A DNA stretch of 64,000 nucleotides from an uncultured Victivallis sp. (GTDB lineage: Bacteria > Verrucomicrobiota > Lentisphaeria > Victivallales > Victivallaceae), in the NCBI GenBank assembly GCA_944389895.1, contig CALXOA010000008.1, positions 1-64,000 on the forward strand. Direction: 5' to 3'. The first letter of the stretch is position 1, and each line of letters starts with the position of its first letter. Made by a program: the position numbers and the translations under genes. A model generated the notes under the pieces. The model searched no databases, was not told where the DNA came from, and was given only the letters and a program-made list of their open reading frames with translations. This document shows, one piece after another, positions 46,506 to 54,524 of this stretch.

Positions 46506-47513
46506 ATGGATTCCGTTTCCGACCAGCAGAAACAACGGCGACCGTCCGGAGGGAAACGATCGACCGGCAGGGAGAAACCATCACAGCATCAACCGGACAC
46601 CCCTCTGGAAGTCGAACATGCACTCGCCTACGACCTGGTGCAACAGGGGGAACACAACTCCAGACTTTACCTTTTTGCGAATGCGTTTTCCCCGAATCTC
46701 GGAGCCAGATTGCTCCATCCGAGTGAATTTGTGTTCTTCAAAGTGGCCGACTCCTATCGGGAACCATTGCACATCCATCGCTATCACGACGAATTTCTGA
46801 TCGCTCTGGAGGGAGAATACTCCTGCTCGGTCAATGCGCAGGAGTTGATCCTCAAGCCATGGGAGGGCGTATTGATTCAGAAAGGAGACGCCCACGCCGA
46901 CCACTGCTGCAAACCGGGATTTTTTCTCGGACTCGCATTTTATCCGGTGGATTCTCTCGGGCGAAACTGGAATGGCCGGATTCTCAGGGAAACCGACTCG
47001 ATCCGGGAACACTGTTTTTCCCTTACCGGAGACTCCGATCTCAAGACTCTGGTGGAACTGGCCAGACATCAGGCGGATTCGACCGAACCATTCATCCGGC
47101 AGGCAAGCCACGCTTTCGCTCAGATACTGATCTGGCGCCTGCTCGGGAAACTGGAATCGCAACTGGCTCCGGAATTTCTCGAGACGTTCGCAAACAATCT
47201 CTTCCGGCTCCGGGTCAATCAGCTTTTCGAGGAAAATCTCCACCGGGAGCTTCCGGTTCCCGAGATGGCAAAGAAGCTCGGAATGAGTCGCAAGACTCTG
47301 GAAAACAAGATGATGCGTTTATTCAACTGCTCTCCGGCCAGAGCATTCCTCGCTTTCCGGCTCGAACATGCGGCGCAACTGCTCCAGCGGGGAAAAAGTT
47401 CCAAAGAGGTGACCCGTGAACTCGGATTCAGCAATCAATTTCACTTTTCACGGATTTTCAAGGCGCATTTCGGCATCAACGCCTCCGCATACGGAATGGA
47501 AAACATTCCTTAG
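46506..47513 (+). CDS. AraC-family transcription regulator (cupin-type sensor)
   Basis: This 335-aa protein starts with a polar tail of about 35 residues. A cupin-like sensing domain follows (EPLHIHRYHDEFLIALEGEY, LKPWEGVLIQKGDAHADH), then the AraC HTH pair at the C terminus (LPVPEMAKKLGMSRKTLENKMMRLF and VTRELGFSNQFHFSRIFKAHFG). The His-rich cupin strand suggests a small-molecule or metal-bound sugar effector. It has its own strong promoter. It is divergent from the pseudopilin-giant gene unit and just upstream of the GH42 operon, so it could control both. The GGAG site is about 13 bases from the ATG. Confidence 0.9.
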   Translation: MDSVSDQQKQRRPSGGKRSTGREKPSQHQPDTPLEVEHALAYDLVQQGEHNSRLYLFANAFSPNLGARLLHPSEFVFFKVADSYREPLHIHRYHDEFLIALEGEYSCSVNAQELILKPWEGVLIQKGDAHADHCCKPGFFLGLAFYPVDSLGRNWNGRILRETDSIREHCFSLTGDSDLKTLVELARHQADSTEPFIRQASHAFAQILIWRLLGKLESQLAPEFLETFANNLFRLRVNQLFEENLHRELPVPEMAKKLGMSRKTLENKMMRLFNCSPARAFLAFRLEHAAQLLQRGKSSKEVTRELGFSNQFHFSRIFKAHFGINASAYGMENIP

Positions 47514-47534
47514 ACGGCACGAGAGATCACGATT

Positions 47535-47557
47535 CGCAAAACGATAAATGTTTTGCG
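47535..47557. promoter_or_regulatory. inverted repeat upstream of the GH42 operon
   Basis: CGCAAAAC (47535-47542), a 7-base centre and GTTTTGCG (47550-47557) form a perfect 8-bp inverted repeat, 10 bases upstream of the GH42 -35 region. No T run follows, so an operator or activator site is more likely than a terminator for the AraC gene. Confidence 0.5.
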
Positions 47558-47567
47558 GGTTACGGCA

Positions 47568-47596
47568 TTTTCTTTTCCGGATCACGCCGGTATAAT
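47568..47596 (+). promoter_or_regulatory. promoter of the GH42 operon
   Basis: A perfect TATAAT at 47591-47596 has only a weak -35 (TTTTCT at 47568-47573), which suggests activator dependence. The predicted leader is about 52 bases. Confidence 0.55.
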
Positions 47597-47655
47597 AAAA
47601 AAGCTGTTCTCAGACAGCTTCAACTCGAACAGGATTCCGGAAAGGAGCAGCAACC

Positions 47656-49767
47656 ATGCAGCCGATGCCTTTTTTATGGGGAGTACAGTATTATCGCGCA
47701 CCGTCACAAGCCCCGGAGCGCTGGGAGGAGGACCTCCGTAACATCAAAGCCATGCATTGCAACACCGTCAAATTCTGGGTGCAATGGCGGTGGAGCGAAC
47801 GCAGAGAAGGAGAGTATTACTGGGATGATCTCGACCGCCTGATGGAGCTGGCCGAGAAATATCGCCTCAAGGTGATTCTCAATCTGATCCTCGACGTGAT
47901 GCCGGTCTGGGTCGAACGCGACTACCCAGAAACCTTGATGACCGACCGCACGGGGCGCCCGACACCGACCCAGACCTTTCTCGCCCGGCAGCTCGGCGGA
48001 TATCCCGGGCCATGTTACAGTTCCGCCCTGATGAGAGAGAAACGCGAGCGCTTTTCCCGGGCCGCCATGCTCCATTTCAAACCCTGCCGGGCGCTGCTGG
48101 CCTGGGATGTCTGGAACGAACCCGAAAACCACTCCGCCCAGCGCGAGGCCGACCACATTCCGGAACTCTGCTACTGTCCGAGCTGCCGCAGCGCATTCCG
48201 GCTCTGGCTGCGGAAAAAGTACGGTTCGATCGAAAGGCTCAATGCGGTATGGGGGCGCTGCTACAATGACTTCGACGAAGTGGAGATGCCCTATGACACC
48301 GGAACACTGATCGATTTCGTCGACTGGCGGGAATTTCATCTGGACAAACTCACCGCCGATGCCGAATGGCGGTTGCGCCTGGTCCGGGAGATCGATCCGG
48401 AACGTCATCCGCATCTGCACACGGTTCCCAACACCTGCTGGTGTTTCAGCTCACTGACCGGCGTCGACGACTACGCCCTCGCCGAGCGATGTGAGATCTT
48501 CGGTGCCTCGATGATGAACGACCCGCAGCTGTGCGCTCAGGCCATCTCCCCGGCGCGGGGAAAGTATTTCTACAATGCCGAGTGGCATGTGAACTACGGC
48601 AACATCACCATGCACCAGCGGATTCTCGGGGAAGAACGATTTCTCTACGAACTGCTGCCTCAGATCGGCTGGGGGGTCAGAGGATTCCTCTTCTGGCAAT
48701 ACGGTGCGGAAACCATCGGTCGCGACGCCCCGGCATGGGGACTGGTGCGCCCCGACGGTTCACCGCGACCGGTGACGAAACATGCGGAAAGATTCATCCG
48801 CGCCATGGAACCGGAATTGCCGCTGCTTCTGCGTTGTCGTTCCGCCGCTCCGCGGGTGATGATCTACCGGAGCAGACGCAACGATATCTTCCAGTTCGGT
48901 TGTTTCGGCAATCTGGAGACATTCCGGCGCAGCCTCAAACAGTACGCCGACACCCTTTACCGGATGAATGTTCCGTTCGGATTCACCGACCGCATCGATC
49001 CGTCGGAGTGTGCCCTGCTGATTCTGCCGCAGCTGTATCTGCTCAGTCACTCCGAAGCCGAAGCGCTCGATCGTTTCCTGCAATCCGGCGGCGTTGTATT
49101 CAGCGAAAGTTCACTCGGCGGTTACGATGATGACATCGGGCGCCACTCGGAGCAGACACCCGGTTGCGGACTGGCGGAACGCTGGCGGATCCGGGAAGAG
49201 GAGAGTACCTCCTCCTATCATCTGCCGGCGGAAGAGAGTGCCGACGAGGTTGCCGGAGCGACCGGCGACCTGCGCAAGGCGCTTGAGGCGACCGGGGTTC
49301 AGGGAGGAGAGCTCTTCCGGCTGACCGGCTGTGACGGCACCGCCGGTACCGGTGCGATTCATTTCGCGGAGCTTTCCGGAGGGGAGACGCTGGCGCATTT
49401 CCACGGTGTCGCCTGCGTGGTGAAACAGCGGGTCGGATCAGGAACGCTTTTCTACGCGGGAACCCTGCTCGGTTACGCCGCAGCCCGGGAAAACAACGAA
49501 CTCTTTCATTTGCTGTTGCAGCAGGCGTGCAATGCGGCGGGAATCCCGCTCCCGGATTCACCGATCCACACCGACCTGCTCCATGACGAGCAGGGGGAAC
49601 TGCGGATGCTGGTCGCGGTCAATCCCGGATCGGACACGGCGACGGTATCTCTGCCGGCGGGCGAATGGCATGAACTGTTCGACCGTTCGACCACTCTCGA
49701 AGGCGCCACGGCGCGCCTGTTCATCCGGAAAAATCTCTCTCAGCCAGAAGGAGTACAGGAATCATGA
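47656..49767 (+). CDS. beta-galactosidase (GH42)
   Basis: This 703-aa cytoplasmic GH42 enzyme has no signal peptide. A TIM barrel starts PFLWGVQYYRAPSQAPERWEEDL. The acid/base is Glu155 in AWDVWNEPE, and Glu309 in YNAEWH is the likely nucleophile. The GH42 structural zinc site is complete: Cys120, Cys172, Cys174 and Cys177 (CYCPSC). A trimerisation domain and a C-terminal beta domain follow. GH42 enzymes act on galacto-oligosaccharides and arabino-galactans. AAAGGAG precedes the ATG. The stop overlaps the next gene start as ATGA, so the enzymes are coupled. Confidence 0.92.
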   Translation: MQPMPFLWGVQYYRAPSQAPERWEEDLRNIKAMHCNTVKFWVQWRWSERREGEYYWDDLDRLMELAEKYRLKVILNLILDVMPVWVERDYPETLMTDRTGRPTPTQTFLARQLGGYPGPCYSSALMREKRERFSRAAMLHFKPCRALLAWDVWNEPENHSAQREADHIPELCYCPSCRSAFRLWLRKKYGSIERLNAVWGRCYNDFDEVEMPYDTGTLIDFVDWREFHLDKLTADAEWRLRLVREIDPERHPHLHTVPNTCWCFSSLTGVDDYALAERCEIFGASMMNDPQLCAQAISPARGKYFYNAEWHVNYGNITMHQRILGEERFLYELLPQIGWGVRGFLFWQYGAETIGRDAPAWGLVRPDGSPRPVTKHAERFIRAMEPELPLLLRCRSAAPRVMIYRSRRNDIFQFGCFGNLETFRRSLKQYADTLYRMNVPFGFTDRIDPSECALLILPQLYLLSHSEAEALDRFLQSGGVVFSESSLGGYDDDIGRHSEQTPGCGLAERWRIREEESTSSYHLPAEESADEVAGATGDLRKALEATGVQGGELFRLTGCDGTAGTGAIHFAELSGGETLAHFHGVACVVKQRVGSGTLFYAGTLLGYAAARENNELFHLLLQQACNAAGIPLPDSPIHTDLLHDEQGELRMLVAVNPGSDTATVSLPAGEWHELFDRSTTLEGATARLFIRKNLSQPEGVQES

Positions 49768-51764
49768 TCACTGAGTTTCGCGACGGTCTGCCTTTTTCCG
49801 CCCACGGGTTCGGCGTCAAGCGCAATGTCTACGTGTCGGGCAGAATCAATTTTTCCGTGGGGGAGAACGGAGGGATCTTCAGGCTGGGCTATCTCGGAAC
49901 CCAGCTCTGGAACAACTTCGACCTGCTGACGGTGCCGGAGGCTTCCGTGTTCAAGCAGCTCTTCCGGCTCCATGTGCTGATCGACGGAACCGCCTACCGG
50001 ATGGAGTACAACAACACCACGCACTACCCCTTCGGCTACCGTTCGGAATGCCGCCTCGGCGGTGTGTTGCTCCAGCATGAGCTGATCGCCGACAACGATA
50101 CGATTTTCCACAGAATCCGGGTTCTCGACAATCCGCATGGAGCACGGGTCACCGCCCGGATCTGCCAGACCTACGACGCGGTGGAAGCGCGCCGGGAGAG
50201 AAGTTTTGAGCCCTGGTGGCGGAATTTCGACCGGGGAACCCTCAATACCGTGATCAATGACGACGGGCACACAACCCGAATCGAGATCGGCGCGGCGGGG
50301 ACCTGTATCTTCAAACCATTCACCCACCAGTTCAAAGCCTACCTGCTCTCTTCGGAACCGGCGGAGGAACATCTCTTCTATCTGACCTTCAATCCGGAGC
50401 CGGGACGGGAGCTCTCCCCGGCCCGCGTCGACCGGAAATTCGCCGAGTTCGAAGAGCTGCGACGGCAGGGGGCCCGGATCGAGAGCGGCGACGACGCCTA
50501 TGACTCGGCGTTGATGTTCACGCCGCTGCTGATGCACTATCTGGAAGTGCCGGATCACCCGGGAGCGTTCCGTGCCTCACCGTTCTACTGGGTCTGGGGA
50601 TGGGACACGATGGTCCACTGCGATGCGTTGATCTTCACCGGATATCCCGACCAGGTGCGCAGAATGCTTCTCTTCTTCGCCCGGACCGCCGATCCGGAGT
50701 TCGGCATACAGATGTGTTATGCAACCGACCTCGCGCCGTCCCACCGTCAGGAACCGGTTCCGGTCCAGGCGTTTTTCCTGATCACGATCTACCACTACAT
50801 CGCAGCGACCGGCGATACGGAAATCCTCGACGAGTTGCGGGATTTCGCCCGACTGACCGCCCGGAGGATCGCGGTCGCACTGGTGCCCGGAGTCGATCTG
50901 GTACGGGGGCGCGGCTACTTCCCGGATTATCCGCAGTTCATCGGATTGACCCGCCACGATTTCAGCGCAATCAACAACTCGATCTGTTACCAGGGGTTGC
51001 GGGCATGGCGCGAACTCTCCGGCGAATTTGCCGATCCATGTGACCGCCTGGAGAAAGCAATCGACCGCTTTTTCGACGAAAAGGAGGGGATGTGGGTCGA
51101 TTCACTCGACGGCGACTCGCTCGAACAACGCCGTTATTACACGATATTCGGCATGTTCTATGTCTCTCCGCTCGCGTTGCGCCCGCGCGCAGCCGATCAC
51201 GGGCGGATCGCCGACTTCATGAAACGGCACCTCCTCTCGCGTTACGGCATCTGGATGCTCCCCCCGGACCGTCCGGGCTTCATGGCCGACGGCGGCCAGA
51301 TCGGGGAGTACTTCCCGGCGGTGGACCGCCCCTACTGGAATATGATGAACCTCGCCGGCGACGCCGCCTCGGCTGCCGATCATCGGAGGATCGTGGGAAC
51401 CTTCTGGCGCAGTTGTACCTATCCGGAGGGGGAGACGACGGATGTCGCCAATGTGGAACCGGGTCTTTATGAGGATGAACCCGGCATGAAACAGCTCTTC
51501 ACGGCAAAGTCGTGGACAAGTTCGGCCGTCGATCTCAATCTCGGTCTCCGCTGGAATCTGGAGGGATTCAGTCTCAATCCGCTGCCCGGCAACGGAGAGT
51601 TCGCAATCCACGGCATGCGGTTGCGCGGGAAACGGGTTTCATTCATCCGGACCGGCAACGGTTCGACTCCGGAGATCACCTGCGGGAAACAACGCATCAC
51701 GGCAGGATTCATTCCGTGGGATCTGCTCGAAGAGAACACCACCATCCGAATCGACATGCGCTGA
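49764..51764 (+). CDS. (alpha/alpha)6-barrel glycosidase-like protein
   Basis: This 666-aa cytoplasmic protein has an N-terminal beta domain (about 1-240) and a six-hairpin helical toroid (about 245-600), ending in a small beta tail. SPFYWVWGWDTMVHCDAL resembles the catalytic entrance of trehalase/GH63-like and MGH1-like families, with Asp in WGWD a possible catalytic acid; the later FPDYPQFIGLTRHDFSAINNSICYQ and EGETTDVANVEPGLY are other candidate active-site segments. I cannot assign the family. Overlap with GH42 and the following esterase gene suggest joint processing of one imported oligosaccharide. Confidence 0.7.
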   Translation: MITEFRDGLPFSAHGFGVKRNVYVSGRINFSVGENGGIFRLGYLGTQLWNNFDLLTVPEASVFKQLFRLHVLIDGTAYRMEYNNTTHYPFGYRSECRLGGVLLQHELIADNDTIFHRIRVLDNPHGARVTARICQTYDAVEARRERSFEPWWRNFDRGTLNTVINDDGHTTRIEIGAAGTCIFKPFTHQFKAYLLSSEPAEEHLFYLTFNPEPGRELSPARVDRKFAEFEELRRQGARIESGDDAYDSALMFTPLLMHYLEVPDHPGAFRASPFYWVWGWDTMVHCDALIFTGYPDQVRRMLLFFARTADPEFGIQMCYATDLAPSHRQEPVPVQAFFLITIYHYIAATGDTEILDELRDFARLTARRIAVALVPGVDLVRGRGYFPDYPQFIGLTRHDFSAINNSICYQGLRAWRELSGEFADPCDRLEKAIDRFFDEKEGMWVDSLDGDSLEQRRYYTIFGMFYVSPLALRPRAADHGRIADFMKRHLLSRYGIWMLPPDRPGFMADGGQIGEYFPAVDRPYWNMMNLAGDAASAADHRRIVGTFWRSCTYPEGETTDVANVEPGLYEDEPGMKQLFTAKSWTSSAVDLNLGLRWNLEGFSLNPLPGNGEFAIHGMRLRGKRVSFIRTGNGSTPEITCGKQRITAGFIPWDLLEENTTIRIDMR

Positions 51765-51832
51765 GTCCACCGGTATGCAACGGGGAAAACGATTCGACAA
51801 CGCCATACCTTGAAACAACGGGAGTATTCACC

Positions 51833-52591
51833 ATGGAAAAAGAGAAGGACCGCTTCGATGAACCGGTCGACAAACTGCCCTTTCTGGAGGCCTCCCACCG
51901 GCCGGAAGAGTTTCAGAAAGAACCCGGCGATTTCCTGATCCTCTTCAAGGGGAACAGCATTACCGCCCACGGCTTCAGCCGGGAGAGCGTGGAAAAGCTC
52001 GGCTGGGATCACCTTTCCGGCATGGCGGCAAGTTCCGCGGAACGTGATTACGTTCACCTCTTTTCCGGCCTTGTCCAGCAGACAATGCCGGGAAGGCGCG
52101 TCCGCATCCTGATCGGCCAGGGCGGCAGACCGGGACTGGTCCTCTCCCATCTGGAGCCGGAACGCCGTCTGGACCCGGATCTGGTGATCGTCCAGAACGG
52201 AGAGCATTGCGCCCATGTGCCTCTGCTTGATGAGTTCCGCCGGGACCATCCGCTCCTCTTGAATACCTTGAAGGAACTTTACCCTCGCGCCCGGATTTTT
52301 TCCGTCGGCGTCTGGAATCCCCGGTGCCGCGAGGAGTTCATCGAGGCCGCCGGCGCCGACTATGCCGCTTCCGCCCGGCAGATCGAAGAGATCCAGCGAT
52401 GTTCCGCCGCCGCGGCCGGGATTCCCTTTGTGCCGGTCTCCGGTTTTGAGAACGATCCGGCCAACAGCGGCAGCGGCAAGGTCGCCCCGGTGCGCTGGCA
52501 CCCCAACGACAACGGAATGCGCTGTTATGCGGAGGCGCTTTTCAACGCCTTTCTGGATCACCGGTCCGCCCGGAGCTCCCGCCCTCAATAG
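51833..52591 (+). CDS. SGNH/GDSL-family hydrolase
   Basis: This 252-aa cytoplasmic hydrolase has the SGNH blocks: Ser42 in [11 protein letters not shown] (GNSIT in place of the usual GDSIT), Gly in GQGGRPG, Asn in VQNGEH and His223 in VRWHPNDNG. The Asp that normally stands three residues before the catalytic His is Val here, so the enzyme may use a Ser-His dyad. Such proteins often remove acetyl groups from oligosaccharides. GGGAG precedes the ATG at 51833; the longer upstream frame is antecedent coding of the previous gene in another frame. It overlaps the convergent pseudopilin gene by 7 bases. Confidence 0.78.
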
Positions 52592-53320: not shown

Positions 53321-54334
53321 TTAGAAGACATCATAATAGGTATCCGCACATTGACGAAGATAGTATTCACGAACCTTTTCCGGAGTCAGGAAGTAGCCGT
53401 CGAGAATGATGTCCCGCCGGGCGCCGTCGGATTTCTCAATCATCTCAATCATCCGGGCAACCTGAAGTTCGATCCTCTCCCGGAAGGGATCGACCAGGGC
53501 GCCGAGACACCCGGAATCGGGAAGAATGTAATCAAACGGCAATGTATACGGGTAGATGAAATCCGGCCGGAACGCGATCGACTGCTCGCGCAGATAGGCC
53601 AGCAGATTCTGGATGATGTCGTTGGAGAGCGTGAACACCGCCGGGATGCCGCTTTTCAGGAACTTGACGATGCTTTCCCGGATGGAGGAACGCAGCGGCA
53701 CATGGAGAAACGGCGTCACCGTGATCCCGTATTCCGCAGCCAGTTCTTCATAGAACGGCCGTTGGTAGTTGGATTCGCTGGTAATGATGCCGACCCGGTC
53801 GTGCCCGTGTTCGTGAAAGACCCGGAACGCTTCCCGGATCCCGCCCCGCCAGTTGACGGAGAGCGTATTGAAAAGATTTCCCCTCCCGGAAGTCAACAGC
53901 AGGGGGAAGTTCATCTCGTGGAGTCGGCGGGCAATTGCCGACTCCGGATTGAGTCCGACGTGGTAGATGACCCCCTCGTTCTGGAGATTGACCAGATTTT
54001 CCAGAGCCTTCTCCTCCTCTTCGGGAGCATAATTGGTGATCTCGATATTCAGCTTGTAATTGTATTTCTTGACCTCGTTGAGCAACGCATGGGCGCAGCA
54101 TGCCTGGGTGTGCCCTGAGATCTTGCCGATCACCAGCCCGATCGACCATGTTCGCCCGGTCCGCAACGCCCGGGCCGCCTGATTCGACTGGTAATTCAGC
54201 TTCCGGGCGGCCCGGCGAATGCGCGCCTGCAATGCCGGACTGACGTGGTTGAGCTGCTTCCCATTAATCACACGTGAAACCGCCATGCAGTTGCAACCGG
54301 CCTCACGGGCAACATCCTTCAATGTGACTCTCAT
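53321..54334 (-). CDS. LacI-family regulator, co-transcribed with a pseudopilin
   Basis: This 337-aa regulator has an N-terminal LacI HTH ([24 protein letters not shown]), the hinge helix ([15 protein letters not shown]) and a periplasmic-binding-like effector domain. The turn between HTH helices has the uncommon residues GCNCM. GGAGAAAC precedes the ATG. A consensus promoter and an 18-bp operator lie immediately upstream, and a second, matching operator lies downstream of the divergent promoter. It probably represses both itself with the pseudopilin and the 1297-aa gene until its sugar ligand appears. Confidence 0.93.
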
Positions 54335-54351: not shown

Positions 54352-54369
54352 ATGGTTATCGTAAACCAT
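54352..54369. promoter_or_regulatory. LacI-type operator O1 at the regulator start site
   Basis: On the minus strand the site reads ATGGTTTACGATAACCAT, an 18-bp imperfect palindrome centred on CG as in LacI-family operators. It covers the predicted transcription start of the regulator gene and matches O2 at 13 of 18 positions. Confidence 0.68.
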
Positions 54370-54373
54370 GTTA

Positions 54374-54402
54374 ATTATACCATAAAAAGGAGCAAATGTC
54401 AA
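54374..54402 (-). promoter_or_regulatory. consensus promoter of the LacI-pseudopilin unit
   Basis: On the minus strand perfect TTGACA (54397-54402), a 17-base spacer and perfect TATAAT (54374-54379) preceded by TGG form the best promoter in the window. Such a strong promoter next to O1 suggests it is normally held down by the encoded repressor. Confidence 0.85.
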
Positions 54403-54441
54403 TACTTCCATGTTAAAAAAATATTTTTTCGCTTTTTCCTC

Positions 54442-54470
54442 TTGAAAATCATCTGATTTTGATTTATACT
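54442..54470 (+). promoter_or_regulatory. promoter of the 1297-aa gene
   Basis: TTGAAA (54442-54447), a 17-base spacer and TATACT (54465-54470) face right. Operator O2 begins about 12 bases after the -10, placed to block initiation or early elongation. Confidence 0.72.
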
Positions 54471-54481
54471 TAAACAAACGA

Positions 54482-54499
54482 ACGGATAACGTTATCCAT
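54482..54499. promoter_or_regulatory. LacI-type operator O2 downstream of the 1297-aa gene promoter
   Basis: ACGGATAACGTTATCCAT has a perfect 14-bp palindromic core (54484-54497) centred on CG. Its centre is 130 bp from the centre of O1, so a tetrameric repressor could bridge both. Confidence 0.72.
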
Positions 54500-54524
54500 A
54501 ACCATTCAGCAGAGGAGCGAGAAA

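Follow-up and report, generated by a model that had tools for sequence, protein, structure and literature searches.

Candidate LacI operators between a lacI-prepilin unit and a divergent gene for a giant exported protein in an uncultured Victivallis

Two CG-centred 18-bp palindromes, O1 and O2, lie between a lacI gene and the divergent gene of a giant exported protein. From their sequence and position, and from the sites of related regulators, we consider it very probable that the LacI-family protein encoded next to them (P0001) reads them as its operators, and that P0001 is a local, sugar-responsive repressor of both the lacI-prepilin unit and the giant gene. The kind of system is well known, while this member and its motif are new. 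Hence, we regard the locus as a well-supported but ordinary case of a classic bacterial switch. With it, a LacI regulator from a little-studied phylum has an operator that can be tested. It also ties a prepilin-like gene and an exported protein with a GH81-like predicted fold into one switch, which is probably sugar-responsive.

We propose the following mechanism. Without effector, a P0001 dimer would bind to O2, just beyond the giant-gene -10, and to O1, over the start of its own transcript. Bound P0001 would block the lacI-prepilin promoter and the promoter of the 1297-aa gene, each through its own operator. A sugar would make P0001 let go, and its probable source is the polysaccharide on which the exported protein acts. 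We infer three parts of this scheme: binding of P0001 at O1 and O2, repression instead of activation, and a sugar as the effector.

Two palindromes at divergent promoters

The window, by which we mean the whole 64-kb stretch of DNA that we analysed, belongs to contig C8; the genome has 3.76 Mb and is 94% complete. P0001 is a LacI-family repressor of 337 aa, encoded by lacI on the minus strand (53321..54334). Its N-terminus carries a LacI-type helix-turn-helix (PF00356, E 2.6e-12, residues 4-51), and it matches CcpA and LacI chains in the PDB. The effector domain has no separate Pfam match; PDB alignments to CcpA extend to residue 184, and for one chain to 316. A prepilin-like (pseudopilin) gene follows on the same strand (P0002, 52585..53298), recognised by its prepilin N-terminal motif (TIGR02532, above cut-off). 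It starts 22 nt after the lacI stop, is preceded by a ribosome-binding site and is presumably co-transcribed with lacI. The giant gene (P0003, 54525..58418, plus strand) runs in the other direction and encodes an exported protein of 1297 aa.

Both promoters of the region had been called near consensus in a preliminary description of this DNA, and both are. The lacI promoter (54374..54402, minus strand) matches at 12/12 positions, with a -35 of TTGACA (54402-54397), a 17-bp spacer and a -10 of TATAAT (54379-54374). The giant-gene promoter (54442..54470, plus strand) matches at 10/12, with TTGAAA (54442-54447), again a 17-bp spacer, and TATACT (54465-54470). A promoter scan of 1.2 kb is expected to yield 0.5 such consensus matches by chance.

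The two predicted operators are placed directly downstream of these promoters. O1 (ATGGTTTACGATAACCAT, 54352..54369, minus strand) begins 4 nt beyond the TATAAT of lacI. It spans about -2 to +16 of the predicted lacI-prepilin transcript and thus covers the predicted start. O2 (ACGGATAACGTTATCCAT, 54482..54499, plus strand) begins 11 nt beyond the TATACT of the giant gene and spans about +6 to +23 of its predicted transcript. The earlier coordinates and sequences of both sites are correct to the base, and the positions claimed for them, O1 over the start of the lacI unit and O2 just past the giant-gene -10, are reproduced. A repressor bound at these positions would block initiation or early elongation.

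O1 is an 18-bp palindrome with 7/9 complementary pairs, and O2 one with 8/9, the inner 14 bp of which (GGATAACGTTATCC) form a perfect palindrome. The sites are identical at 13/18 positions, with exactly 130 bp from centre to centre, so that the match, the CG centres and the distance all stand as first described. Neither site is unique as a palindrome, because the window contains seven CG-centred 18-mers with 8/9 pairs (O2 among them) and 49 with 7/9 pairs (O1 among them).

If single palindromes of this kind are common, then O1 and O2 could be chance palindromes without function. However, in dinucleotide-preserving shuffles of the 190-bp intergenic region, a pair of CG-centred sites with at least 7/9 pairs each that match each other at 13/18 or more positions occurred in 0/20,000 cases. 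Any two sites with at least 7/9 pairs occurred in 0.2% of these 20,000 shuffles. The same sequence is also found beside related regulators in other genomes (see below), and we give chance practically no credence.

A half-site common to O1 and O2 had been described as well. It is present, but in its loose form (CGNNANCC) it is not distinctive alone: GGNTNNCGNNANCC occurs five times in the window, compared to 2.0 expected. An extra half-site that is identical to one O1 half (ATAACCAT, 54498..54505, plus strand) overlaps O2. The second register that it defines over O2 (54488-54505, AACGTTATCCATAACCAT) also matches O1 at 13/18 positions, but its centre is CC, and hence its role, like that of the extra half-site, is doubtful. 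The sites in relatives support the CG-centred register of O2.

The palindromes could also act in RNA, as hairpins in both 5' leaders. O2 can form a hairpin of five pairs in its leader. Yet folding is no better than that of shuffled sequences (z of -1.3 and -1.1), and the O1 transcript retains a stem of only four pairs, because O1 straddles the predicted start. Furthermore, the CG centre and the spread across the promoters are what a LacI operator would have. A function in RNA is therefore highly improbable in our view, and we continue with O1 and O2 as DNA sites of P0001.

Genome scan and relatives of the regulator

CG palindromes at LacI promoters are common in this genome, since 16 of 30 LacI genes have one upstream compared to 2.2 expected from shuffles (counting 14-bp palindromes with at least 6/7 pairs no more than 200 bp upstream of the LacI gene). 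Across the LacI family, a survey found a CG centre for 1173 of 1303 factors and autoregulation for 72% (PMC4052901). Upstream of three other LacI genes of this genome (L014, L019 and L029), CG palindromes particular to each gene occur in tandem, for example TGATTCCACGTGGAATCA twice, 33 bp apart.

To look for the full regulon, a genome scan had been proposed earlier; we scanned by pattern, allowing mismatches. The combined pattern ATGGWTWWCGWWAWCCAT matches O1 and O2 and no other site in the whole genome with at most one mismatch. As the pattern was derived from O1 and O2 themselves, the informative point is the absence of further sites. The next best site (G000:C78:8209, two mismatches) has an araC-type gene on one side and a prepilin gene on the other. 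We rejected it as a further regulon member: it is 180 bp from the start and does not coincide with an evident promoter. We noticed that this site (G000:C78:8209-8226, L083) has a near-identical counterpart 4.3 kb away (G000:C78:12484-12501), the two reading ACGGTTTTCGAAATCCCT and ACGGTTTTTGAAATCCCT. A wider regulon was rejected too, as all but one of the examined three-mismatch sites outside this intergenic region lie inside ORFs of at least 120 aa. Because there are no further sites with up to one mismatch, and those examined with three are nearly all inside ORFs, P0001 looks like a local regulator with a regulon confined to the O1/O2 locus.

Conservation in close relatives had been proposed earlier as a test of the sites. 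No orthologous locus or intergenic region turned up in the family search or in the genome collection, and the best LacI relative is 31% identical. Therefore O1 and O2 have no counterparts for a base-by-base alignment, and conservation can be checked only through the relatives of the regulator.

Nine genomes of the genus contain four copies of the pattern beyond O1 and O2. One copy is in G005, over the start of an rfbB-like gene. The other three are on a single 8-kb contig of G006, which also carries P0004, a LacI protein with about 30% identity to P0001. On this contig, ATGGATAACGTTACCCAT follows closely on the -10 of an operon that consists of a gene for an exported protein like AXE1 acetyl-xylan esterases, and lacI. 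The perfect palindrome ATGGATAACGTTATCCAT and ATGGACAACGTTATCCAT are both in the stretch that separates lacI from a prepilin gene. A degenerate site (13/18) is located at a TTGACA/TATAAT promoter directly before lacI. Hence, the same operator accompanies the same trio in G006 (an exported carbohydrate enzyme, LacI and a prepilin), although the genes are arranged differently. An order-wide scan with at most one mismatch found, apart from G000 and G006, scattered single matches only; of the two that we examined, one is the G005 site and the other (G046:C9) lies inside a prepilin reading frame.

We then searched 388 genomes of the phylum for further LacI relatives with a profile. In three genomes of another family (G053, G058 and G119) a perfect 18-bp palindrome, ATGGAAAACGTTTTCCAT, is found at -35 or -44 of the lacI start. 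Each of these genomes has one exact copy, the one before lacI. In G119 lacI is followed by a marC-like gene and not by a prepilin. Like P0004, the G053 LacI protein matches Peripla_BP models weakly.

In a maximum-likelihood tree P0001, P0004 and the LacI proteins of G053, G058 and G119 form one clade (86/95), which is moderate support for the grouping of P0001 with P0004. The sister of this clade (99/92) consists of two LacI proteins with the sites TGCACACGTGTGCA and TGCAAACGTGTGCA, and the next clade has mostly TGTTGAAACGATTCAACA-like sites. The TGG/CCA half-site was found in none of the 28 other LacI genes with CG palindromes. Operator and regulator have been inherited together, which is the strongest computational evidence short of binding. 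In terms of conservation the relatives of the regulator give a clear picture: no orthologous locus was found, and the same operator type occurs beside the nearest LacI relatives in four other genomes.

The residues just before the recognition helix differ between the clades as well. They are GCN, GCS or NCS in P0001 and its relatives with ATGG-type sites, and NIS or NVS in the sister pair. We rejected the cysteine as the sole determinant of specificity; it is also present in a few unrelated LacI proteins of our set. The comparison of clades pairs DNA-binding-domain sequences with the half-sites ATGGWW, TGCAMA and TGTTGA, which helps to read LacI specificity in Lentisphaerota.

A different regulator might read O1 and O2. 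The genome has at least 34 LacI-type matches, another of which might do so, and there is an AraC-type gene at a distance of 7 kb, at 46506. However, four other genomes have the motif type beside relatives of P0001 and not beside other regulators, and other LacI genes have different palindromes of their own. A different regulator is consequently very unlikely, and P0001 is the preferred candidate.

The two sites may differ in strength. O2 matches the clade site ATGGATAACGTTATCCAT at 17/18 positions and occurs in G006 as a perfect form of its type. O1 matches it at 14/18, differing at four bases. Since O2 is closer to the site of the clade, we infer that P0001 binds it more tightly than O1. In G006, too, the site beside lacI is the weakest (13/18). 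With tight binding at the enzyme gene and weaker binding at lacI, the repressor would be able to keep up its own supply.

The preliminary description had also suggested DNA looping. In this scenario a LacI tetramer bridges O1 and O2, loops out 130 bp and thereby ties the two promoters to each other. E. coli LacI forms loops from operator to operator, and here both promoters lie between two operators that are spaced by 130 bp. However, 130 bp correspond to 12.4 turns at 10.5 bp per turn, which places the sites out of helical phase. LacI carries a C-terminal tetramerisation helix. P0001, with 337 aa, has the length of CcpA compared to 360 for LacI and, judged by length only, appears too short for such a tail. 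Relatives do not keep the spacing either: their sites are 67 bp apart, kilobases apart or single. Looping is not needed: two divergent promoters are a simple explanation of two sites. We find it unsupported and consider it unlikely. The autoregulated switch that had been predicted for lacI-prepilin and the 1297-aa gene, in contrast, is supported by the promoter geometry, by the genome-wide uniqueness of the sites and by the co-inheritance of the motif with the regulator clade.

The exported protein and the prepilin

What the giant gene encodes is suggested mainly by a structural model. P0003 matched no family in Pfam or NCBIfam, and a P0003 profile found no GH81 chain among the PDB sequences. 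For the last 758 residues, AlphaFold with 19 relatives gave a good model (pLDDT 83.9, pTM 0.87). When this C-terminal model was compared to known structures with Foldseek, the first 14 matches were all GH81 beta-1,3-glucanases (E 3e-15 to 8e-9, TM about 0.5, about 10% identity). By sequence P0003 falls outside GH81, and the likeness is one of predicted fold only. Given the GH81 matches and no Pfam family, P0003 is probably exported and active on glycans, as an enzyme of a family outside Pfam, and this large protein probably cuts sugar polymers.

The P0003 family is spread over records from Lentisphaerota, Planctomycetota and Verrucomicrobiota, often behind a regulator-prepilin pair. In Lentisphaerota a same-strand prepilin often precedes its homologues, with a GntR-like or LacI regulator ahead of both. 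These prepilin-giant cassettes of relatives are on one strand, unlike the divergent layout at our locus.

Prepilins are frequent neighbours of LacI genes here. A prepilin motif was found no more than about 330 bp downstream of 12/28 LacI genes of this genome and of 14/19 distinct LacI genes of the P0001 superclade. Our literature search found no paper on cassettes of LacI and prepilin genes in Lentisphaerota. Planctomycetes have pili-like fibres to which dextran binds as it is taken up (PMC5394234). By analogy, it is conceivable that pilins beside LacI genes act in glycan capture. One may go further and speculate that in Lentisphaerota many polysaccharide regulons own a dedicated prepilin, with a local regulator that co-regulates the prepilin and an exported degrading enzyme. 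We put this forward tentatively, as an idea that is rather more likely to be wrong than right. If true, it would be as if a substrate-specific pseudopilus part were made for each glycan. The prepilin beside many sugar regulators raises the question of what role those pilins have.

A run of plus-strand genes in the same window (46506-52591) ends tail to tail with the prepilin gene. It encodes an AraC-type regulator, a GH42-like protein, a 666-aa protein without Pfam match and a GDSL lipase/acylhydrolase, and is a probable further gene set for glycan use.

Comparison with known systems

The closest parallels are local autoregulated LacI regulons with a divergent target (Ravcheev et al. 2014, PMC4052901). 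Both have a CG-centred even palindrome, operators at the promoter of the regulator itself and at a neighbouring carbohydrate gene, and a small local regulon. In contrast to those regulons, the half-site ATGGWWWA is tied to a specific clade here, the targets include a prepilin, and the enzyme has no Pfam family. The phylum of our locus is not mentioned in that paper.

Over its first 185 residues or so, P0001 shares the helix-turn-helix and, to judge from the alignments, the sugar-binding-protein-like layout of CcpA, GalR and LacI structures, with CcpA as its best PDB match (E 5.6e-16). It differs in having at most about 30% identity and its own recognition-helix residues. It also appears to be a local, not a global, regulator, with no sign of the LacI tetramerisation tail.

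As in the E. coli lac operon, where O1 is similarly placed, one operator lies at about +7 from the start, and the same regulatory region has a second one. Unlike in lac, each operator here would serve its own promoter, with no evidence of a tetramer or a phased loop.

Finally, the C-terminal 758 aa of P0003 resemble GH81 endo-beta-1,3-glucanases in predicted fold. They differ from them in sequence (about 10% identity, TM about 0.5, no Pfam match), and P0003 has an extra N-terminal half of about 540 aa.
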